A stretch of DNA of 64,000 nucleotides from Selenomonadaceae bacterium (GTDB lineage: Bacteria; Bacillota; Negativicutes; Selenomonadales; Selenomonadaceae). The position numbers and the translations under genes are program-made. This document shows, one piece after another, positions 13,550-42,215 of the stretch; within the stretch, counting starts at the first letter, position 1, and each line of letters begins with the position of its first letter. The stretch is taken from assembly GCA_017535925.1 (NCBI GenBank), contig JAFXTD010000055.1, forward strand, positions 62,001-126,000, read 5' to 3'. Below the pieces are notes generated by a model. The model saw only the letters and a program-made list of their open reading frames with translations, searched no databases and was not told where the DNA came from.

Positions 13550-13580
13550 TTGACAAAAAAATAAAAACAATTATTATAAT
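13550..13580 (+). promoter_or_regulatory. Probable promoter of the RTX metallopeptidase gene
   Basis: A perfect TTGACA (13550-13555) and TATAAT (13575-13580) lie 19 bases apart, longer than the optimal 17, in a very A-rich spacer. The ribosome binding site AAAGGAGATGA follows at once. Confidence 0.5.
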
Positions 13581-13602
13581 GCACAAGAAAGGAGATGATT
13601 TT

Positions 13603-16600
13603 ATGGCGACGCAACAAGAAGTTATCAAAAAGTTTATGGCAGCTTTGGACACGCACACATTGACGAAGAGATCTAACGAAACTGACGCAGCACTCGCAAC
13701 AAGAATTATCGACACGGCAATTCGTGCCAGTTCCAATTTTAAAAGCACGCAGGAAGTCATCGACAAAATAGTCGAGGACTGTGAAAGTTACCTCGCCGCC
13801 GATTCCAAAAACGGGTATAAAAAATTTCTGCTTGAAAAATGCGGAATCAATCTCGACAATGACGACACGGGCGCAATCACAGGCTCCGACGCGGGCGGTT
13901 CCACGACGAAGACTGCAGAGAGTATCGTTTCCGAAAGCGGATCACTGAAAACAAATTTTGAAGAGAATTTTTTCAAGGTAGGGGAACTTACTGTCAAATT
14001 GGCAACTGGAGGCGGAAAAAACGCTGATCCGAAGGAAATAACTTTCAACGATCTTAACAATGAAAATGAACGCTTCATCTGGCAAAGTCTCAGGTCTTAT
14101 TGGATAGAAAGCGGTCTTAATCTTATTGCTGAATCTTACGGAAATAATTTCACCTTCAGTGAAGGAAATTCTTCAGTTAAAACACTCTATGTAATTTTCG
14201 ACTATAACATGGATTATTCAACACGTGCTAAAACCTTAAGCGGTCCAATCAAAAATCAAAAATGTACGATACCTCTTGAACTGCACATAAATATGAATCG
14301 TTTCTCAAATCTTTCCGGCATTAACGGCGGCAACTCTGACGGAAGTGCATGGTATTTAGACAGGACAATAGCTCACGAATTAACACATGCAGTAATGATA
14401 GCAAATGTTGATTATTTCTTTTATTTGCCGCAATTTATTGCAGAAGGCATGGCTGACCTTACAAACGGCATCGACGATAAGAGAAAGTCTTACATCACAG
14501 ATTTAGCAAAAAATCCTGATCTGTTGAAAGAATGGCTGGATGTAAACGATACGAGCTCAACCAGCAACTATGTTTATTCGGCAGGTTACATGTTCCTGCG
14601 CTATCTGGCTAAACAAACTTCGTTGCAAGGCATTAACATAAGCAATACAAAGACCAAAGCAAAAGTAACAGGAACTGACAATGCCGACACCATAGAAAAT
14701 TACGGAGCGAATTCTACCATAACCGCGCTTGGCGGAAATGATTTTATCGGCAGTTATGTAGCAAAATCCTCGATAAACGCAGGAGGCGGCAACGATACCA
14801 TCGATAATACAAGCTACGGCACGAACACAACGCTTTTTGGCGGCGCAGGTAACGATTCAATTCTTAACAGCGCGAACGCCAAAATAGACGCCGGAACGGG
14901 CGCGGATACAATAACAAACACAAATCTCGGCGGAAAAGCAACTCTCTTCGGCGGAACGGGTAACGATTACATAACGACTTACAATGCCGACAACGTTTCA
15001 ATCAGCGGTGGCGCAGACAATGACAAGATAGAACTGCGCGGCACGGGCAAAAATATCACGGTTTCAGGCGGCGGCGGCAATGATACAATTTCAATAAGCG
15101 GCGGCACCGCGCTGATTCAATATTCTGCGGGCGACGGCAACGATTCTGTCGTCGGCTTCAATGTAAACTCGACATTGCAAATCGGCGGCGGCACAGGCAC
15201 TTACTCCACAACCAAGAGCGGCTCAAATGTCGTAGTCACTGCCGGCACGGGTAAAGTTACACTCACGGGCGCAGCTAATCTATCGAAACTCAACATCGCA
15301 GGTAAAAAAGTTTCGCCGGACGGCGGAAAAAATATTACCAACACCAAATCTAAAACATTGGTAACAGGCAGTGCTTATGCCGATACTCTTTATAACAACG
15401 CAACTAAGGTTACAATAGACGCGCTTGGCGGTAATGATTCAATCAGCAACAGAAATTCCGGAGCGTCCATAAACGGCGGAGCAGGTAAAGACACGATTTA
15501 TAACGACTCAATTTACGGTGACGGTTCGCGAGTTACAATAATTGGCGGCTCAGGCAAGGATTCAATAAGTAATTATGCCGGTAACGTCATAATTTACGGA
15601 AATGCAGATTCAGATGAAATCTACAACGGCACCGGCGGCAATTCTGTCACAATCGATGGCGGAGACAGTTCCGACGAGATAGACAGCAGGGGGACTAATG
15701 TGTCAATCAAAGGCGGAGCAGGAAATGATTCAATCTACATAGACGGCTCAAAGGCAACAGTCAATGGCGGCACCGGTAAAGACTCAATACGAAATTTCGG
15801 CGAGAATACTCTTTTCCAATACAAGACAGGCGACGGCAACGATTCAATCTGGGGATTCAAGACTAACTCGACATTACAAATCGACGGCGGTTCCGTAGTT
15901 TCCTTGCAGACGAGCGGCTCAAATGTTATCGCAACTGTCGACAAAGGTAAAGTCACATTAGTAAGCGCGGCGAATTTGAACGTCGTAAACATTCAAGGCT
16001 CAGGAAGCAGTGACTATATCAAAAGCACAGTCAGCGGCGCAAAGATAGACGCACTCGGCGGTAACGACACAATCAGTAATACCGGTTCCAAATCCAAACT
16101 TTACGGCGGCAAAGGCAACGATAAATTTTATAACTATGCCACTGCTGTCGTGACAATCAGCGGCGGAAGCGGCGCAGATACAATAAACAACTGGGGCGGT
16201 GCGACTTCAATGGTCGGCGGTTCCGGCAACGACGTTATTTGGGGCAATGACAAGGCTGATACTCTTCGCGGCGGTGCCGATAACGATAAACTTCACGGCG
16301 ACGCAGGCAACGATAAAATCTACGGCGATTCGGGCAATGATTCTCTTTGGGGCGAGGCAGGAAACGATTCACTCTGGGGCGGCAAAGGTAATGATACTTT
16401 TATCTACACCGCGAATGAAGGAATCGATACAATTTTTGATTACGAAAAAGGCGACATGTTGAAAATCCTCAATACCGACGGCTCGCAAGGAAAGTTCAAA
16501 AGTTCCAAGTACAGCGGCGGCGACTTAACACTTACAATCACCGGCGGCGGCAAAGTTATCTTCGACGACGTAAGCGCAAGCACGCAGTTTAATATCAACG

Positions 16601-16644
16601 GCACGACTTATAAAATCAGCGGCTCCAAACTCAAAAAACAATAG
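13603..16644 (+). CDS. RTX-repeat protein with zinc metallopeptidase domain
   Basis: A 1013-residue protein without a Sec signal peptide. Residues 1-110 are a helical head ending in a DTGAITGSDAGG motif. Residues about 120-340 form a peptidase domain with H258-E-L-T-H262 and E281, the zinc ligands of a gluzincin-type HExxH...E site. From about 345 to 970 run glycine- and aspartate-rich repeats of the GGxGNDxI/L type that bind calcium and fold as parallel beta-rolls. The C-terminal tail (FNINGTTYKISGSKLKKQ) is shared with the second RTX protein here and may be a type I secretion signal. No secretion genes are nearby. I start it at ATG 13603, after AAAGGAGATGA. It is flanked by near-identical terminators. 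Confidence 0.8.
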   Translation: MATQQEVIKKFMAALDTHTLTKRSNETDAALATRIIDTAIRASSNFKSTQEVIDKIVEDCESYLAADSKNGYKKFLLEKCGINLDNDDTGAITGSDAGGSTTKTAESIVSESGSLKTNFEENFFKVGELTVKLATGGGKNADPKEITFNDLNNENERFIWQSLRSYWIESGLNLIAESYGNNFTFSEGNSSVKTLYVIFDYNMDYSTRAKTLSGPIKNQKCTIPLELHINMNRFSNLSGINGGNSDGSAWYLDRTIAHELTHAVMIANVDYFFYLPQFIAEGMADLTNGIDDKRKSYITDLAKNPDLLKEWLDVNDTSSTSNYVYSAGYMFLRYLAKQTSLQGINISNTKTKAKVTGTDNADTIENYGANSTITALGGNDFIGSYVAKSSINAGGGNDTIDNTSYGTNTTLFGGAGNDSILNSANAKIDAGTGADTITNTNLGGKATLFGGTGNDYITTYNADNVSISGGADNDKIELRGTGKNITVSGGGGNDTISISGGTALIQYSAGDGNDSVVGFNVNSTLQIGGGTGTYSTTKSGSNVVVTAGTGKVTLTGAANLSKLNIAGKKVSPDGGKNITNTKSKTLVTGSAYADTLYNNATKVTIDALGGNDSISNRNSGASINGGAGKDTIYNDSIYGDGSRVTIIGGSGKDSISNYAGNVIIYGNADSDEIYNGTGGNSVTIDGGDSSDEIDSRGTNVSIKGGAGNDSIYIDGSKATVNGGTGKDSIRNFGENTLFQYKTGDGNDSIWGFKTNSTLQIDGGSVVSLQTSGSNVIATVDKGKVTLVSAANLNVVNIQGSGSSDYIKSTVSGAKIDALGGNDTISNTGSKSKLYGGKGNDKFYNYATAVVTISGGSGADTINNWGGATSMVGGSGNDVIWGNDKADTLRGGADNDKLHGDAGNDKIYGDSGNDSLWGEAGNDSLWGGKGNDTFIYTANEGIDTIFDYEKGDMLKILNTDGSQGKFKSSKYSGGDLTLTITGGGKVIFDDVSASTQFNINGTTYKISGSKLKKQ

Positions 16645-16745: not shown

Positions 16746-18059
16746 TCAAGCGTCGAGTATCGCCCACTCGTGAGTGAAGAAAAAATTTTTGCTTTCAGGA
16801 AGTTTACCCCAATTTTCGACGACGCGACTCAATGCGCGGGTAACGTCGTGATGACCGTCGGTGTTCGTGAGCAGCACGAGAAATTGATTCGTGCCGTTTT
16901 GAGAAATAACATCGCCGCGCCGCAAAGTGGTATGCAGGCATTCGATAAACACTTCGCCCGCGTGCTTGAGAGAAGTTTTTTCGCCGTCACTTGTCCGCTT
17001 GAGCGCGAGGAGCACAATGCAAATCGTCTTGCCGTAGCCTGCGCGGGTTCGCTTGAGGAAACGATAAATATTTCTGAAACTTTCAAACGGCAAAATATAT
17101 GCGCCGGGCTCTTTGTTGCGTTCGGAAAGAATCATTTCAATTTGCGAAAGTGTAACGACCGTCTCAATATTTTCTTCGGGAGCGTCCTCGTTGAAAATGT
17201 TGTAGCCGTGCTTGCCGTTCTGCTTGACGATATAAAGAGCCTTATCAGCTTTTTTGTAGAGCTCGGTAAAATCGGTGCCGGCTTGCGGAACAAGTACGCA
17301 ACCGATTGACGCGCCGAGCGGAATGTTCATATCCTCGCCCATCAATTTTTTTGCGGCTTCGGTAATTTTTTCGTTAATGAATTGAGTTTTGGCGGCAATG
17401 GAGGATTCCTCGTGAACGCCGTGACAAAAGGCAACAAATTCATCGCCGCCCATGCGCCCGATTAAATCCGTCGAACGCATCGTTGCCCGCAAAATATCTG
17501 CAAACGCTACCAAAATTTTATCGCCCATTGCGTGCCCGTGAATGTCATTAACCAGCTTGAAACTGTCGAGGTCAATCATCATAAGCGAGCCGTGTGACTT
17601 CTTACAAATTTTCTTGAGTTCCTCTTCCGACGAACCTTTATTGAAAAGCCCCGTGAGTTTATCGGTCGAGGAAGTCTTCTTCAAGTCTTGAATTTCTCCG
17701 ACGGTTTGAAGGATATTCGCCACGCGCCGCAAGAGGACTTCGGGTTGAAAGGGCTTGCGAATAAAATCCATTGCTCCGTTGTCGAAGCCTCTGCTTTCAA
17801 CCTCGTCGCTTTTGTCAGCCGTCATGAACATGAACGGAATTTTTTTGTGAAATTCGTTTTGCAAGGCTATTTGGAAATCGTAGCCCGTCATGCCCGGCAT
17901 ACGAAAATCCGACAAAATCAAATCGGGTTTTTCTCTGCGATAAACTTCTGCCGCCTCTTTTGCTGAAGAGGCACAAACCGTTTCATATTTTTCCGCGAGC
18001 ATGAACGCCGTCATTTCGCGATTGACTTCCATGTCGTCCACAATCAAAATTTTTTTCAT
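16746..18059 (-). CDS. Response regulator with GGDEF domain and second GGDEF-like module
   Basis: A 437-residue cytoplasmic protein. Residues 1-120 form a CheY-like receiver (ILIVDDMEVNRE, phospho-acceptor Asp in LILSDFRMPGMTG, Lys in FIRKPFQ). Residues about 130-295 form a GGDEF diguanylate cyclase domain with an intact GGDEF in RMGGDEFVAF, so it likely makes c-di-GMP when phosphorylated. The C-terminal 130 residues look like a second, degraded copy (RRGDVISQNGTNQFLVLL, where NGTNQF replaces GGDEF). I use ATG 18057-18059 with GGTGAG six bases before it; a TTG two codons upstream is too close to that site. No kinase gene is adjacent. Confidence 0.85.
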   Translation of the reverse strand: MKKILIVDDMEVNREMTAFMLAEKYETVCASSAKEAAEVYRREKPDLILSDFRMPGMTGYDFQIALQNEFHKKIPFMFMTADKSDEVESRGFDNGAMDFIRKPFQPEVLLRRVANILQTVGEIQDLKKTSSTDKLTGLFNKGSSEEELKKICKKSHGSLMMIDLDSFKLVNDIHGHAMGDKILVAFADILRATMRSTDLIGRMGGDEFVAFCHGVHEESSIAAKTQFINEKITEAAKKLMGEDMNIPLGASIGCVLVPQAGTDFTELYKKADKALYIVKQNGKHGYNIFNEDAPEENIETVVTLSQIEMILSERNKEPGAYILPFESFRNIYRFLKRTRAGYGKTICIVLLALKRTSDGEKTSLKHAGEVFIECLHTTLRRGDVISQNGTNQFLVLLTNTDGHHDVTRALSRVVENWGKLPESKNFFFTHEWAILDA

Positions 18060-18155
18060 AATCAACTCACCGCCCTCAAAAAATAACAGGCAAAAATCTT
18101 CTGTTAATTATAAACGTTTACGTCGACAAAGGAAAGAAAAAATTTTTCGCAGGCA

Positions 18156-32766: not shown

Positions 32767-34891
32767 TTACCTCAGCAAGCCGAGCACCGCGTTTGAATTT
32801 TGATTTGCCTGCACAAGCATAATTTGAGCTGTCTGTGTCAACAAGATGTATTTCGCGTAACGGGAAATTGTTTTTGGAATGTCAGCGTCACGGATTGTTG
32901 ATTCGGCGGCTTGAGTGTTTTCATTTTCGGTTGTGAGGTTGTCCGCCGTGTATCCGAGTCGAGTTTCCATTGCGCCGAGATTTGCCGCTTGATTGATTGC
33001 GTATTCAAGCGCGCCGTCGATTACGCGAATGGCAATGTTTGCATTTTTCTTTGTCGTGACGGAAATATCGTCGAGCGTTTTATTTTCTGCCGCCTTGAGA
33101 GTTTCAAGCCATTGCGTTTGCTTGGTGCTGTCATGGTTCAAGGCATTGTAGCGATTAATATCGTCTCCGTTGAGGAGGTTGCCGCTGTCGTCGAAAATTT
33201 TTCCTGCACCGAGAGCCTTTGTGCGCATGTCTTCAATAAAAATATTAATGAAGTCGTCCGAAGTCGTGCCGCTTTGAATTCTCAAAGGATTACCGGAAAT
33301 TTCTTTCGTTTGCGCCTTGTCGACTGTGATTGTGCTCGTCACTAAATCTCCTTGAGGTTCAATCTGCGCGACAATGCCCAAGTCAAGCGTAATGTCAAAA
33401 GTCGTCAGCCTGTTGCTTATCGTGCCAAAGTTCGCGTCCGCGTAGCCTGCCCCGATATCCGAAGCGTATTTGCTGTATGCATTGACTGTGGCTGAACTGC
33501 TTATGGTTATATCGCCAACTGAAGAATCAGAAAAGCTTAAAGAACCATTGAAGCTTCCGCAACCGATTCCCGCGCCGTAAAAACTTGTTGCCGTGACGAT
33601 TGCATTACCTCCGATTGAAATATTTCCTGCGCTTGAGTGATTTGGAGCACTGCCTATGCCGGCTCCCGCATTTCGGCTTTTTGCAATGACGGTTGCATTA
33701 CCTCCGATTGAAATATCTCCCACGCTTGAATGTTGACCGGAACCAATACCCGCAGCACTGCCGGTTGTCGCATTGACAATTGCATTGTCGACGATTGAAA
33801 TATTCCCAACAGTGCCGCCGTCCCCGCCGCCGATAGCCGCTGCAGTCGTACCGTCAGCATTCGTTGCCGTGACGTTTGCATTGCCGCCGATTTTTATATC
33901 TCCTATAGTTTTGCCGCCGATAACTGCACTTAGACTATACCTTCGAGTAGTTATCGCTGTAATTTTGACATTGTCGCCGATTGTTAAATCTCCTACAGTA
34001 TCATTCCAATTACCGCCAATTTCTGTTCCGTTTGAACCCTGCACCGATAAAGAACCGGTGCCGACAATTTTTAAGCCGTCGCATATATATTGTCGCATAA
34101 GCGTGAATAGTATCATTGCTTTCTAAATTGTTCGTGCCCTTGACCGTCAGATAATTGTCCGCGCCTTGAAACTTGATTATGTTTCTGTTTTCGGCGTTGG
34201 CAATGTTTAGGTTCTCAATCCAAAGATTTGCATTGCCTTCCGCACGAGTGACGATTGAAACGTTTTTAAGTTGAGTGGCGGGCGTCTGTTGAGTGAGCTT
34301 GACGTTTTGGGCGTTGACGATGACAGTGCCCGTGTAATTTTCTGCAAGCGAGTAAACGCCGTCCTCTGTGATTGTGTAATCGCCTGCAGAAATTAAAGTC
34401 GCGGCAACCGTTTCTATTGTTTCGGAAGCTTGCACAGTTTCTTCAACGGTAAAACTTTTTTGGGAGTAGGTGCCGTCCAAAAGAATTCTTCCGTTAAAAT
34501 TTGTCTTCGAGGCAATGTCGTTAATGTTCGCTATCCTCTGCAAAAATTCTGTTTGAATAATGCGGCGGTCGTCGTTTGTGTTGGAGTCGTTTGCGGCGTT
34601 GATTGCCAATTCTTTTAACGATTTAAGAGTTTCGACAATGTTGCTGATTCCGCCCCCGCCCGTCTTTAAGAGAGCGGAGCCGTTCTGAACATTTTGATGA
34701 GCTTGGTCGAGGGCGCGAATTTCCGCACGCATTTTTTCCGATATGGCATAATCCGAGGGATTGTCTGCGGCAGTATTGATTTTCATGCCGGTTGCCGCTC
34801 GCCGTAAATTTTTCTCGGCTTCCGTGCCGGTACGATTGAGTAAAACGAGAGTGTACATCGCCGCAAGATTATGATTAATCGCCATTGCCAT
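32767..34891 (-). pseudogene. Flagellin with repeat-rich insert, frameshifted
   Basis: Two overlapping frames together encode one long flagellin of about 708 residues. The first (34891 to about 34010) has the N-terminal D0/D1 region (RRAATGMKINTAADNPSDYAI) and the start of a beta-rich insert (NYLTVKGTNNLESNDTIHAYAT). The second (about 34116 to 32767) continues the insert from CDGLKIVGTGSLSVQG and ends in the D1/D0 region (TIRDADIPKTISRYAK, NSNAVLGLLR). The shift falls at an (AT)4 run near 34085-34092; two more bases would restore one frame. The insert has repeats of about 25 residues (SVGDISIGGNATV) like a beta-solenoid. Sequencing error, decay or slippage-based switching are all possible. 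Confidence 0.75.
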
Positions 34892-37809: not shown

Positions 37810-37837
37810 TCCCAATTCCCAATTCCTAATTCCTAAT
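37810..37837 (-). repeat. ATTAGGA/ATTGGGA heptanucleotide repeat (4 units) ending the rhodanese gene
   Basis: On the minus strand two ATTAGGA and two ATTGGGA units. The TAG stop of the rhodanese gene (37833-37835) is inside the first unit, after AAC AAT. The same arrangement occurs at the end of potC (52439). Confidence 0.85.
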
Positions 37838-38546
37838 TGTTATCAACCGCCGTGCCTTCGACGGGTCCCGTCCAATCGATAATGCCGCCCATAGTGTAGA
37901 CGTTCGTGTAGCCGTTTTCGATTAAAACTTTTGCAGTCAGCCGCCCGCGGTTGCCGTCGCCGCAGTAGGTGATAAGCGGTGCCTCTTTGTCGGGTATCTT
38001 CTCGAAATTTTCTGCCACGGCTGCTTCAAGCGGAAAGTGAATCGCATTTGGAATATGCCGCATCTCGTAATCTTTCGGGAAACGACAATCCAAAAGTTTT
38101 GCGTCAGGATTCTCCGCTAAAATTTTCATTGCCTCTTCTTGAGAAATTTGCTTGTAGGTTGCAACGTCCGAGCCTTCGACCTCTCCGCTCCAATCGACAA
38201 GCCCGCCCATCTCATAAACGTTTTTGTAGCCTTTGTCAGCCAAAATTTGTGCCGAATCTTCTGCGCGGCGACCCGTCCAGCAATAAATTATAATCGTCGA
38301 GTCCTTGTCGGGGATTTTGGCGAAGTCTCCTTTGCGCAAATCTTCAATCGGCAACAAGACGGCGTTGGGAATGTGTTTTTTGTCGTACTCGTCTTGAGTC
38401 CGAACATCAAGTAAAATTGCGTCGGGGTTGTCTGTCATCATTTTGGTTGCCTCGTCGTGTGTCAAGTATTTGAAAGTGTTTTTCTCGCCGCAACCCGCGC
38501 ACAATGCAAGCATGAAAATCATCAGCACGGACAAAAATTTTTTCAT
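37833..38546 (-). CDS. Double rhodanese-domain lipoprotein
   Basis: A 237-residue exported lipoprotein with lipobox CAGC (Cys19) after a signal sequence. Two rhodanese domains follow, residues about 27-125 and 130-230, each with an active-site cysteine: YCWTGRRA and YCGDGNRG. Rhodaneses carry sulfane sulfur on this cysteine, and exported ones are linked to sulfur transfer or oxidation at the cell surface. The two domains share EMGGLVDWSGEVEG and TMGGIIDWTGPVEG, so they arose by duplication. The stop codon lies in a heptanucleotide repeat. Confidence 0.85.
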   Translation of the reverse strand: MKKFLSVLMIFMLALCAGCGEKNTFKYLTHDEATKMMTDNPDAILLDVRTQDEYDKKHIPNAVLLPIEDLRKGDFAKIPDKDSTIIIYCWTGRRAEDSAQILADKGYKNVYEMGGLVDWSGEVEGSDVATYKQISQEEAMKILAENPDAKLLDCRFPKDYEMRHIPNAIHFPLEAAVAENFEKIPDKEAPLITYCGDGNRGRLTAKVLIENGYTNVYTMGGIIDWTGPVEGTAVDNN

Positions 38547-38571: not shown

Positions 38572-38606
38572 CAGCTAACCACTAACAGCTAACAGCTAAC
38601 AGCTAA
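38572..38606 (-). repeat. TTAGCTG heptanucleotide repeat (5 units) ending the permease-kinase gene
   Basis: Read on the plus strand the units are CAGCTAA, CCACTAA and three more CAGCTAA. The TAG stop of the permease-kinase gene (38603-38605) is in the last unit. The unit is the same as at 18944. Confidence 0.85.
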
Positions 38607-41503
38607 TTTAAAACCTCCGTTAAAGTTTCAATCATTTTTTGAACGTCAAGAGGTTTGGCAATGTGGCTGTTCATGCCCGCCTCCTTTGCCGCCTGTATGT
38701 CTTCCGTGAAGGCGTTCGCCGTCATTGCGATTATCGGAATGTGCGCAAGTTTCAAATTCGGAAGTGAACGAATTGCTTTCGTTGCCTCGTAGCCGTTCAT
38801 GACCGGCATTTGAACATCCATTAAAATCGCGTCGAAGTCGCCGGGCTTGCTTGCCGAAATTTTTTCGACGGCAACCTGTCCGTTTTCTGCCGTGTCCAAA
38901 GAAAATCCGAACTCCGTCAAAATCAGCGAGGCTATTTCGCGATTGACCTCGTTGTCCTCGACAAGAAGAAGTTTTATCTTGCTGAAGTCAATTTCACGAT
39001 TGGAATCTGTCGTTTCGACTTCGACCTCTTCGGGCTCGTCGACAATCGGGAAGTCAACGCGAACGATAAATTCCGTGCCCTTGCCCAGTTCGCTCTCAAC
39101 GTCAATCGTGCCGCCCATAAGTTCGACGATACTCTTTGTGATTGACATGCCCAAGCCCGTGCCTTGAATGTTGCTGACGGAGCGGTCGCGTTCGTAGGCG
39201 GCGAAAACTTTTTTTGCAAATTCGGGCGTCATGCCCATGCCGGTATCCTTCACGCGCAATTCGTAAGAACCTCTTTCATCGTTGCCGCCGATTTGCCGCA
39301 AAGTCACGGTGACGGAGCCGCCTTCGGGCGTGAATTTGTAAGCGTTGCTGATTAAATTCAAGAGGACACGATTGAGGCGCGGCGTATCGCACAGAACGGT
39401 TTTGTTCATGACGTGGTCGAAATTGACTTCGAACTTCAAGCCCTTGTTTTCCATTTGCGTCGCGAATAAATCTTTGACCTCGTTCAAAGCTTTGACGAGA
39501 TTTGATTCTTGAGGGTCGAGTTCCATTTTGCCGGACTCAATGCGGCTCATGTCGAGGATGTCGTTTATCAAAGAGAGCAGGTGATTGTTCGAAGCCTCTA
39601 TCTTGTCGAGATAATCTTTTGTCCTCTGCGGAAGTCCCGGCTCCTTCTTGATAAGATTCGTGTAGCCGATAATCGCGTTCATTGGCGTGCGAATGTCGTG
39701 GCTCATGTTCGAGAGGAAAGTCGACTTCGCCTTGTTGCTCCGTTCCGCTTGAACTTTTTCACGCTCCATATTTTTTTCGCGATTCATCATCAAGTTGTAA
39801 ATGTTGAACATGATAAACAGCGCGATTGTTATCAAAATCATTTGCATGAGGTTGTGGCGCGTCAAAGAGTCGCTCACGATTTTCATTTGCCCTTGCAGAT
39901 AATATTGCGAATCTGCTTTTTCTCTGTCGGAAGGAGGGATGCCGTGTTCGTTGAGCTCTTCGGTGTAATATTCTCGCAAGTTGCCCAAGACCGTTTGAGC
40001 TGCGTCGCTTGTTGCCTCACGAACCCAAAGCATCGACGTGAAGAAAATTAAAAACAGCAAAGCTATCCAAGAGATTGTCGACTTGCCGAAACGTCGTTGC
40101 TCGTTGTCGCGCTGAAAGATATATCGGAAGAAGACGAAGCCGAGAATGCTCCAACAAATCAGAATCAAATAACTTTCGGTCGTCATTGCGCTGACTGTCC
40201 AGACGTTGGGCACCATGAAATACAGGAAGAAAATCAACGAGACGACGCAGCCGATTGTTCCGGTGATTTGCGGAAGGCTCTTGCCGACCGTCCGCGCAGT
40301 GATAATCGTGACGAGCGATGTGTAAGTGTAATCAATCGTTGCGCCGATTGTGTTCACGTCGACAATCCAAGCAATCGCCGTTCGTCCGAGAAAAGGTATC
40401 GGCAAGCTTAACAACATGATAAACAGGACGGCGTTCGTGGGCGTATGATTTTCATTGAGCTTGCCGAACCAAGCGGGAAGCAAATCGTCACGAGTCAAAG
40501 CGTAAATCAAACGGCTTGCGGCGATATAATTTCCGACAAGACCGGTTATGACACCGCACACGCAAGTTACCGCCAAAATTATCAAGCCCGTATCGCCCAA
40601 AAAGAAATGCACCGCGTGAAACGTAGGCAGCCCTTCAAGTCCCTCGTAACTGTCCAAGTTGTTAATGTATTCAGCCCAATTCGCGCAACCTTGAGGCAAA
40701 GTCGAAACGGCAAGAAGCGTGAGGAACGTATAAGCCAAAGCCGCCGCGACTACTGCGCAGAATAAAATTGCAAAAGTTTTTTTCACGGAGAACTTGAAAC
40801 CTTCCGCCGATTGCGAAACGGATTCGAAGCCGACAAAAGCCCACGGCGCAAGCACGACAATTCCGAAAATCGCCGCGAACGAATCATTGGTATCGGGAGG
40901 CAAGGCGGGCTCAATGTCAAAAATATTCACGCCGCTTGACACGACCGAGACGATACCGATTAAGACGCCGCCGAATAAAATTATCGCCGCGACGGTCTGA
41001 ACCCAAGCCGCCAATTTGCCTCCGTACATGCAGACGACTCCGAAAATCCACAGCGCGCCCAAGCTCAACAGAACTTCGCCGAACCAAATATCAAAGCCGG
41101 CGATTGTATAATGAAAGCCGAATTGAAAAGTATCGCCCAAAAATTTTCTGAAGATAATCGGCAGGGCGGTTGCGTTCGCCCAAGTGATTGCGATATAAAC
41201 CAAAATCAAAAACCACGAACTCAAGAAGCCGTGGTCATAGCCGAGAGTTTTTTTTGCGTAGGAATAAGTGCCGCCGGCGTCAGGATATTTATTCATCATG
41301 AAGTGGTAGTTGTAGCCGATAATCAACATGATGATTCCGCCGACCGCCATGCCCAGTGCCGTGCCGAGCGGTCCGCCTATCGGCAAGAAAGTTGTGCCCG
41401 GCATGACGAATGCGCCCCAGCCGACCGCGCAACCGAATGACAATGCCCAAACGTTCAGCGGCGATAAATAAGGTTTAAGTTTTGTGTTTTCTGCAGTATC
41501 CAT
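38603..41503 (-). CDS. Amino-acid permease - histidine kinase - receiver fusion
   Basis: A 966-residue inner-membrane protein. Residues about 10-480 are a full amino acid/polyamine (APC) permease (FGCAVGWGAFVMPGTT, YPDAGGTYSYAKKTLG, FVGFESVSQSAEGF). Two more membrane helices frame a periplasmic loop (about 485-570), then come a HisKA domain with H in NMSHDIRTPMNAI near residue 600, an HATPase domain (LISNAYKFTPEGG, GTGLGMSITKSI) and a receiver with the phospho-Asp in AILMDVQMPVMNG. This suggests a sensor whose input is transport or binding of an amino acid, as in CbrA with its SLC5 part. GGTG precedes the ATG by eight bases. No response regulator gene is adjacent. Confidence 0.88.
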   Translation of the reverse strand: MDTAENTKLKPYLSPLNVWALSFGCAVGWGAFVMPGTTFLPIGGPLGTALGMAVGGIIMLIIGYNYHFMMNKYPDAGGTYSYAKKTLGYDHGFLSSWFLILVYIAITWANATALPIIFRKFLGDTFQFGFHYTIAGFDIWFGEVLLSLGALWIFGVVCMYGGKLAAWVQTVAAIILFGGVLIGIVSVVSSGVNIFDIEPALPPDTNDSFAAIFGIVVLAPWAFVGFESVSQSAEGFKFSVKKTFAILFCAVVAAALAYTFLTLLAVSTLPQGCANWAEYINNLDSYEGLEGLPTFHAVHFFLGDTGLIILAVTCVCGVITGLVGNYIAASRLIYALTRDDLLPAWFGKLNENHTPTNAVLFIMLLSLPIPFLGRTAIAWIVDVNTIGATIDYTYTSLVTIITARTVGKSLPQITGTIGCVVSLIFFLYFMVPNVWTVSAMTTESYLILICWSILGFVFFRYIFQRDNEQRRFGKSTISWIALLFLIFFTSMLWVREATSDAAQTVLGNLREYYTEELNEHGIPPSDREKADSQYYLQGQMKIVSDSLTRHNLMQMILITIALFIMFNIYNLMMNREKNMEREKVQAERSNKAKSTFLSNMSHDIRTPMNAIIGYTNLIKKEPGLPQRTKDYLDKIEASNNHLLSLINDILDMSRIESGKMELDPQESNLVKALNEVKDLFATQMENKGLKFEVNFDHVMNKTVLCDTPRLNRVLLNLISNAYKFTPEGGSVTVTLRQIGGNDERGSYELRVKDTGMGMTPEFAKKVFAAYERDRSVSNIQGTGLGMSITKSIVELMGGTIDVESELGKGTEFIVRVDFPIVDEPEEVEVETTDSNREIDFSKIKLLLVEDNEVNREIASLILTEFGFSLDTAENGQVAVEKISASKPGDFDAILMDVQMPVMNGYEATKAIRSLPNLKLAHIPIIAMTANAFTEDIQAAKEAGMNSHIAKPLDVQKMIETLTEVLN

Positions 41504-41633: not shown

Positions 41634-42215
41634 ATGTTGGCTTACGATACTCGCAACGACTATGAAATTATCGAGGGGGTAAAATTTATGTCACCAAGTC
41701 CGTTTAAGCGACACGGAAAAGTTGTCGGGCGGTTGATGTTTTCGATTGGCACTTATGCTTTCATTAATCGGCTCGGGTCGGCATTCGCAGATAATTTTGA
41801 CGTTAATCTTCCCGATGGAAATGTTCTTCGTCCTGATTTTATTTTTATAAGTGCTGCGAACGATAAAATTGTTTTCGACAACGAGGATGAAAACTTTCAC
41901 GGCGTGCCCGATATGGTTGCCGAAATTTTTTCCCGCTCGACAATGAAACGCGACATGACGATTAAAAAAGAAATCTACGAACGCAACGGCGTCAAAGAAT
42001 ATTGGATTATCAATCCTTGGAGCGAGAGCATCGAGGTTTATCTTCTGCGCGACGGAAAATATTTTTTGGACAACGTTTATCAAAATTACAGCAAAGAAGA
42101 ATTGGAAAAGCTCACCGACGAGGAGCGGGCGGAAGTTTCAACGGAAATCCCCGTGAAAGTTTTGGACGGCTTCACGATTAAGATAAAAAATATTTTCGGT
42201 TGGTACTTTGAATGA
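41634..42215 (+). CDS. Uma2 family (DUF820) putative endonuclease
   Basis: A 193-residue soluble protein of the Uma2 family, which has a PD-(D/E)xK nuclease fold. Visible core motifs are RPDFIFIS near residue 66, DMVAEIFSRST near residue 97, and KKEIYERNGVKEYWIIN, which together carry the Asp, Glu and Lys of the fold. Their role in cells is unclear; they are abundant in cyanobacteria and scattered in Firmicutes. It has its own promoter and lies 36 bases before trkH, so it may be co-transcribed with the potassium system by chance. Confidence 0.8.
   Translation: MLAYDTRNDYEIIEGVKFMSPSPFKRHGKVVGRLMFSIGTYAFINRLGSAFADNFDVNLPDGNVLRPDFIFISAANDKIVFDNEDENFHGVPDMVAEIFSRSTMKRDMTIKKEIYERNGVKEYWIINPWSESIEVYLLRDGKYFLDNVYQNYSKEELEKLTDEERAEVSTEIPVKVLDGFTIKIKNIFGWYFE

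Follow-up and report, generated by a model that had tools for sequence, protein, structure and literature searches.

The fusion gene and its domains

The window analysed here is a stretch of 64,000 nucleotides from a Selenomonadaceae bacterium (assembly GCA_017535925.1, contig JAFXTD010000055.1, positions 62,001 to 126,000 of the forward strand), and the gene under study occupies positions 38603-41503 of it. A preliminary description had recognised there a complete APC permease joined in a single frame to the HisKA, HATPase and receiver domains of a hybrid histidine kinase. Both the coordinates and this domain order proved to be correct. The gene lies on the minus strand, where one frame of 966 amino acids runs from the ATG at 41503 to the stop codon at 38603, and the plus-strand frame at the same positions is riddled with stops. 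An alternative TTG start is possible 13 codons upstream of the ATG. The gene and its parts are as follows.

38603..41503, minus strand: APC permease/hybrid histidine kinase fusion, 966 amino acids (frame, Pfam, catalytic boxes, full-length model)
40094..41467, minus strand: APC (AA_permease_2) module with 12 transmembrane (TM) helices, residues 13-470 (Pfam residues 13-436, structural match to AdiC)
39794..40093, minus strand: extra TM13, helical hairpin and TM14, residues 471-570 (hydropathy, predicted helices 477-520 and 526-589)
39530..39793, minus strand: signalling helix and HisKA (DHp), residues 571-658, phospho-acceptor His602 (Pfam, predicted helix 526-619)
39047..39388, minus strand: HATPase_c (CA), residues 706-819 (Pfam, intact N, G1 and G2 boxes)
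38621..38968, minus strand: receiver, residues 846-961, phospho-acceptor Asp896 (Pfam, catalytic residues)

Pfam profiles matched the protein well above their cut-offs, AA_permease_2 at residues 13-436 (93.1 bits, cut-off 27), HisKA at 592-658 (77.6 bits), HATPase_c at 706-819 (97.7 bits) and Response_reg at 846-961 (84.5 bits). The motifs MSHDIRTP, GTGLGMS and LMDVQMP pointed out earlier are present, and a sequence motif check found the H, N, G1 and G2 boxes as well as the receiver aspartate and lysine intact. The C-terminal part is that of a hybrid histidine kinase, with HisKA, HATPase_c, receiver and all boxes present, and the N-terminal part is that of an APC permease, both by family profile and by a complete LeuT-type fold of 12 TM helices. 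Among the best 25 of 150 NCBIfam families the protein did not qualify as TorS, LuxQ, BarA or ArcB, with equivalog scores of 327 against 676.5, 283.9 against 1200, 273.5 against 890 and 267.6 against 838 bits, respectively. In the Pfam scan (E ≤0.001, five families listed) no match to SSF, STAC, PAS or Amt was found, and no family covered the hairpin.

The assembly of the window's genome (76 contigs, 91% complete) contains a second full-length fusion on another contig with 48% identity. When 151 genomes of the same family were searched with the fusion, 68 of them matched at E ≤1e-120, a count which includes fusions to other outputs and kinase-only matches. A full-length frame with at least 65% identity was present in 24 of the 28 same-genus genomes, the window's own included and one cut at residue 947, and in one further genome of the genus (G140) the gene is split into two frames. 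Among 11 close orthologues the kinase had the lowest median ratio of nonsynonymous to synonymous polymorphism (pN/pS), 0.131, followed by the permease (0.167), the receiver (0.170) and the hairpin (0.180), with the highest value, 0.281, in the short linker that joins kinase and receiver. The permease part is therefore constrained like the rest, and every domain of the fusion is under purifying selection.

A scan of named genomes yielded at least 590 confirmed relatives, not all of them necessarily fused, and the loci of the best 80 were read. By their titles these 80 belong mostly to Selenomonadaceae/Selenomonadales, Lachnospiraceae and Oscillospiraceae. They include Quinella metagenome-assembled genomes (MAGs) matching at 84-87%, the Lachnospiraceae relatives Butyrivibrio WCD3002, MB2005 and strain NK4A144, and two Lentisphaerota MAGs, which may be misbinned or may have received the gene by transfer. 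Contigs L093 and L097 are titled Victivallales or Lentisphaeria and L096 uncultured bacterium; their fusions sit among Bacillota in the permease tree, which points to transfer or MAG misbinning. A motif script found kinase, ATPase and receiver motifs in one frame in 66 of the 80 loci; the remaining 14 comprise 11 which run off the contig, one split gene (L094) and two without one motif pattern. Wider samples, searched at E ≤1e-60, gave 112 matching genomes out of 380 for the class, 8 out of 299 for the phylum and 22 out of 295 for the order to which G619 belongs. Three genomes in each of the latter two samples carry a fusion by frame length, the others having unfused permeases in frames of about 410-630 residues.

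This search for the same domain order and its taxonomic spread had been proposed in the preliminary description, and it yielded full-length fusions in the same genus and in named relatives. A frame break between permease and kinase, which had been named there as the finding that would speak against a fusion, was not seen in the window, and full-length orthologues exist in the same genus. A chance or assembly-made fusion was rejected on the grounds of the same-family orthologues, the named-genome relatives and the pN/pS constraint. It is near certain that the architecture of the APC-kinase fusion and its conservation are real.

Permease fold, gates and module exchange

A structural model of residues 1-590, calculated with an 88-sequence alignment, yielded a 12-TM APC fold with a mean predicted local distance difference test score (pLDDT) of 92.6 and a predicted template modelling score (pTM) of 0.91. 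The best solved structural match is AdiC (5j4n_B, a chain of 436 residues) with Z 39.5 over 422 aligned residues at 19% identity; y+LAT1, CAT4 and LAT1 come next, with Z 37-39. The full-length model had a mean pLDDT of 86.6 and a pTM of 0.67, so that the placement of the domains is less sure.

Behind the permease hydropathy suggested two further hydrophobic segments, near residues 471-499 and 547-575, with the helical hairpin between them. Helices 477-520 and 526-589 were predicted in the shorter model, and in the full-length model one continuous helix 526-619 runs through TM14 and beyond His602. According to the topology derived from these segments the hairpin would be outside the membrane and the kinase inside. 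It could be argued that the permease is a mere membrane anchor or dimer platform and that the TM13-TM14 hairpin is the real sensor, as the hairpin has the build of a small prototypical kinase input, from which the predicted helix continues into the DHp domain. The hairpin is, however, the least conserved region measured (mean 0.46 in 62 hybrid fusions, as compared to 0.66 for the permease and 0.88 for TM1), it is about 30 residues shorter in the tandem histidine kinase proteins, and several pocket and gate residues of the permease are nearly invariant, so we consider a hairpin sensor quite improbable.

The comparison with substrate-site residues of known APC transporters suggested in the preliminary description was carried out with AdiC, the sequence of E. 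coli K-12 being aligned with the fusion and Tyr365 placed by reading the printed alignment. In AdiC, Tyr93, Trp202, Glu208 and Tyr365 are reported as gates, Trp293 as the contact for the guanidinium group, and Ser26-Gly27 as that for the carboxylate (PMC6199258). The four gate residues align with Tyr103, Trp221, Glu227 and Tyr392 of the fusion, which thus has both the proximal and the distal gate of AdiC-like gating. The full set, if Phe is accepted at 103, occurs in 74 of 75 fused modules but in none of 13 unfused relatives, 11 of which have Asp at the position of Glu227. Further marks of the fused modules are Trp108-Ala109 and Cys25 in TM1, the latter at the position of AdiC Asn22 and found in 72 of 75 fused modules as compared to 1 of 13 unfused ones. 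AdiC Asn101 was also considered as a counterpart of Asn110, which is not claimed here because the alignments place it one residue off, at Ala111.

While the gates match, the ligand contacts differ. The position of AdiC Trp293 is taken by Asn325; here 55 of 62 hybrid-kinase fusions have Asn, all nine receiver-less kinases Leu or Phe, all four cyclase fusions Asn or Gly and all 13 unfused relatives Phe. AdiC Ser26 corresponds to Trp29, and Gly27 is kept as Gly30. With tryptophan at the Ser26 position the usual carboxylate contact is altered, which weighs against the receptor-kinase reading given below, but Trp29 is common to 10 of the 13 unfused relatives and was for this reason rejected as a receptor-only adaptation. 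Since Trp293 is replaced, a ligand other than that of AdiC is likely. The preliminary description had suggested sensing of an amino acid or polyamine; of this the AdiC-type arginine or agmatine part is not favoured, because the Trp293 and Ser26 positions are changed and only Gly27 is kept, features which also set the protein apart from arginine:agmatine antiporters of the AdiC type. As to a loss of APC substrate residues in all relatives, raised there as a possible objection, these two AdiC positions are changed in the fusion and the gate residues are kept. Gating may have been kept and the ligand changed, perhaps differently between subclades; that the ligand is an amino acid is judged, rather than computed, to be fairly probable.

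A permease with intact gates might still be a working transporter which reports flux rather than simple binding, in the manner of a CbrA-like transceptor. Besides the gates and the complete fold, the purifying selection on the permease would fit this, as would the finding of only three AA_permease_2 matches (E ≤1e-5) in the window's genome, two of which are the fusions, and the reported transport of histidine by the SLC5 domain of CbrA. The changes at the AdiC Ser26 and Trp293 positions speak against it, and a transporter-kinase can lose transport altogether, as reported for Ks-Amt5. We regard continued transport as a serious possibility, though one that falls somewhat short of even.

A permease-only tree was calculated from 88 rows (143 collected modules thinned to 91, minus three partial or split rows). 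All 75 fused modules are on one side of a branch with 100/100 support, within which the deepest branches are weakly supported. The nine receiver-less kinase modules form one group (100/100), and the four cyclase-fusion modules group with the hybrid-kinase fusions (89/89), with a single origin of the cyclase fusions in 26% of the bootstrap trees. The same APC module precedes HisKA-HATPase-receiver, receiver-less HisKA-HATPase in tandem gene pairs, and GGDEF, and therefore behaves as an interchangeable receptor. The simplest reading of the tree would be one fusion, with the hybrid kinase first, followed by receiver loss and one or two exchanges for GGDEF. This bears on the proposal that regulation runs from the kinase to the permease, with transport gated by the receiver or by the state of phosphorylation and any other output secondary. 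Such an arrangement would suit a receiver in the same chain and a window with no adjacent response regulator gene, but relatives keep the module while the kinase is exchanged for GGDEF or the receiver is lost, and it is judged very improbable.

Two side observations concern these variants. An APC-GGDEF fusion in another family (L188:1297-3696, genome G943) ends soon after GGDEF, without the C-terminal extension of the cyclase fusions of genome G040, and possibly therefore represents a second, independent exchange. Tandem receiver-less pairs occur at L038, L039, L042, L045 and L046, and some kinase halves look degenerate, such as L039:6810-9329 with altered N and G1 boxes, so one member of a pair may be a pseudokinase.

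Among kinases without an APC part, the nearest in the window's genome is a hybrid kinase with an SBP_bac_3 input, 60% identical to the kinase part of the fusion; this family senses L-arginine in RmcA, as reported in PMC8846402. Because of the 60% identity within one genome, the data fit a kinase chassis common to two solute-sensing inputs, APC and SBP_bac_3. That the permease part of the fusion is a receptor is, in our judgement and not by computation, quite probable. A wider claim can be made only tentatively: the module may be a general exchangeable class of bacterial receptor, which arose by one fusion event, kept its gates as a ligand-driven switch, gained the TM hairpin as transmitter, was joined to hybrid kinase, receiver-less kinase or diguanylate cyclase, and in one lineage saw the kinase-to-cyclase relay collapse to a permease-cyclase.

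Proposed output towards c-di-GMP and neighbouring genes

As the preliminary description had noted, no response regulator gene is directly beside the fusion in the window. A candidate was found elsewhere in the window, a receiver (REC)-GGDEF protein.

16746..18065, minus strand: REC-GGDEF response regulator, 437 amino acids from the ATG at 18059, proposed output partner (Pfam, homology, co-occurrence)

Over about 415 of its 437 residues this protein shares 49-50% identity with the regulators of L086, L101 and L110. In the Butyrivibrio loci L101 and L110 the REC-GGDEF gene points the same way as the fusion and ends, stop included, about 24 and 8 bases ahead of it, whereas in the Oscillibacter MAGs L086 and L088 it is divergent from the fusion; these genes were recognised by Pfam in L086, L088 and L101 and by similarity in L110. 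In the Butyrivibrio isolates WCD3002 and MB2005 the REC-GGDEF gene, the fusion gene and a hybrid histidine kinase gene follow one another. G040, a genome of the same genus listed as 100% complete, contains three direct APC-GGDEF fusions, to which the cyclase and C-terminal extension of the window regulator are 46-51% identical, and the same-family genome searches found in it neither a full-length APC hybrid kinase nor a close regulator orthologue, only one at 50%. Across the 151 genomes, 41 of the 47 with a hybrid-kinase fusion have a regulator match (E ≤~1e-130) and 41 of the 44 with a regulator have a fusion, the lists having been copied by hand and including partial or split genes (e.g. G001, G018 and G140) and paralogue-type fusions (G058 and G079). 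By genus, eight have both, one has the fusion only, none the regulator only and 21 neither.

Several findings weigh against this partnership. REC-GGDEF adjoins the fusion in only 4 of the 80 loci, and the window regulator is 20 kb away. The co-occurrence cut-off was set after the hits had been seen, and shared ancestry confounds and inflates the statistic. Homologues of the regulator with weaker scores (E 1e-53 to 1e-86) are found in other genera too, including eight genomes without an APC match (G043, G080, G099, G104, G105, G118, G122 and G123). GGDEF was matched 12 times in the window's genome, where another hybrid kinase, equipped with an HPt domain of its own, has a second regulator of this type beside it. 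Another contig of this genome encodes a small protein, HPt-like and with an HALKG motif, which could carry a phosphorelay; its score is below the Pfam cut-off (22.6 as compared to 24.6 bits), a further point on the negative side. Nesting of the APC-GGDEF cyclases within the window-type regulators was not used as support, as the cyclase tree was made by a quick method and has open forks and long branches; it shows only one shared cyclase family, which also includes the regulator beside the other hybrid kinase.

The output, which the preliminary description had left open, is thus narrowed by the relatives and by the window regulator towards cyclic di-GMP (c-di-GMP), short of proof. We take c-di-GMP to be the likeliest output, with a chance which is judged, not computed, to be about even. 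Chemotaxis or gene expression as output appears rather unlikely. CheB-like genes are directly upstream of the tandem pairs in four of five loci (L039, L042, L045 and L046, not L038; confirmed by Pfam in L039 and L045 and by similar C-termini in L042 and L046), and a methyl-accepting chemotaxis protein gene adjoins the pair in L039. This arrangement, however, belongs to the receiver-less group and not to the window's part of the tree, whereas GGDEF links occur among hybrid fusions like that of the window. As a separate observation, in the CheB genes L039:3108-4223 and L045:3821-4921 the receiver is not found or below the Pfam cut-off, respectively, and the usual Asp is by eye seemingly absent.

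Taken together, the fusion is interpreted, with somewhat better than even confidence, as a transporter-derived receptor kinase with output via REC-GGDEF to c-di-GMP. The APC pocket would bind a solute, most probably an amino acid, though not arginine, and opening and closing of the conserved gates would move TM14 of the hairpin. TM14, predicted to form one helix with DHp, would in turn set the autophosphorylation of His602 and the transfer to Asp896, from where the signal would reach the REC-GGDEF regulator directly or through an HPt protein, changing c-di-GMP. In one sister genome this wiring was apparently cut short, with a related cyclase fused to the permease module itself. If true, amino-acid-type sensing would be linked to c-di-GMP in rumen Selenomonadaceae and Lachnospiraceae.

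A gene for a tandem rhodanese follows 56 bases downstream of the fusion.

37833..38546, minus strand: tandem rhodanese with a hydrophobic lipoprotein-like N-terminus (by eye), probable operon partner (Pfam, conserved downstream position)

Same-strand downstream rhodanese genes were found in 30 of 66 usable loci, the window included, and 29 of the 30 are within 170 bp; usable loci had a complete fusion (or a split one, L094) and enough downstream sequence, 14 being cut off and L085 not resolved. A script detected a hydrophobic N-terminal stretch in 29 of the 30 rhodaneses, a strict lipobox in 11 and the active-site Cys pattern in all 30. The window protein fails the strict lipobox pattern, its stretch ending by eye in Ala-Gly-Cys. 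These positions support a fusion-rhodanese operon in one part of the clade, and the N-termini hint at extracellular sulphur chemistry. The ligand might then be a thiol compound or sulphur amino acid on which this rhodanese acts, in line with the Cys25 of the fused modules and with the presence of downstream rhodaneses also in two Oscillibacter, one Victivallales and one Lachnospiraceae MAG. In the other 36 of the 66 loci, both Butyrivibrio isolates included, no downstream rhodanese gene was found, and the gene pair may be a regulatory coincidence, so a sulphur ligand appears unlikely.

Upstream of the fusion is a divergent gene of the Uma2 family of putative nucleases (41634-42215), and similar genes are near the fusion in several relatives. 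Elsewhere in the window a flagellin gene on the minus strand (32767-34891) seems split into an N-terminal half (34010-34891) and a repeat-rich C-terminal half (32767-34116), in overlapping frames by eye, so that a frameshift or assembly error is possible. By eye, an open reading frame of 1021 amino acids at 13579-16644 resembles an RTX-repeat secreted protein, with a metal-binding-like HELTH motif and numerous repeats of the GGxGND type.

Comparison with known transporter-linked sensors

The preliminary description had likened the fusion to CbrA, and set it apart by a different transporter superfamily and by the receiver. The SLC5-STAC kinases CbrA, CrbS/MxtR, PrlS and RpuS are reported to share with it the LeuT-fold superfamily and a transporter N-terminal to the histidine kinase, and some are hybrids (PMC7096432, PMC7918813). 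The transporter families do differ (SLC5/SSS as compared to APC), but not the superfamily, because both are now grouped in one APC superfamily (PMC7918813); nor is the receiver distinctive, because the SLC5 kinases MxtR/CrbS and PrlS are reported to be hybrids as well. That reading stands as regards the fusion, the intactness of kinase and receiver, and the idea of a transporter as sensor. In contrast to the SLC5-STAC kinases the protein belongs to the AA_permease_2 family, has no SSF, STAC or PAS domain by Pfam, and passes through TM13, hairpin and TM14 into DHp. SLC5-STAC has also been reported joined to diguanylate cyclase (PMC7096432, PMC7918813, PMC9100948). The transporter domain of CbrA is reported to be dispensable for signalling, and histidine left the kinase activity unchanged (PMC7096432), findings which count against a receptor role and therefore call for caution about a transporter as sensor.

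In Ks-Amt5, too, a transporter fold serves as receptor and is joined to a HisKA-type kinase; the protein differs by its trimeric Amt fold, by having DHp and CA only, by its ammonium ligand and by the reported loss of transport (PMC5764959), and no ammonium transporter match was found in the fusion by Pfam. In E. coli the permease LysP informs the signalling protein CadC, but these are two separate proteins, and CadC is no kinase (PMC6978683). The closest structural relative, AdiC, shares the aligned gates; it has no signalling domain, and its Trp293 and Ser26 are not kept in the fusion. Yeast transceptors such as Gap1 are not known to carry a kinase in the same chain. These proteins are eukaryotic, and resemble the fusion in being signalling amino-acid permeases (PMC11109136).

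A literature search that had most subscription papers and public domain-architecture databases outside its range found no paper in which an APC permease is joined to a kinase or GGDEF; a c-di-GMP sensing review (PMC8846402) gave no hit for permease, transporter domain or amino acid transporter, and the hits in a signalling census (PMC1183210) were not relevant. The fusions considered here are those of this APC family, and APC-kinase fusions of independent origin outside it were not searched for. Transporter-kinases are thus already known with CbrA and Ks-Amt5, none with the APC family in the literature searched. Few of them have been characterised, and how a kinase reads the conformational cycle of a transporter is unresolved even for CbrA. 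With many solved structures, kept gates, three natural outputs and close unfused relatives, the APC family offers a comparative and experimental route to what makes a permease a receptor.

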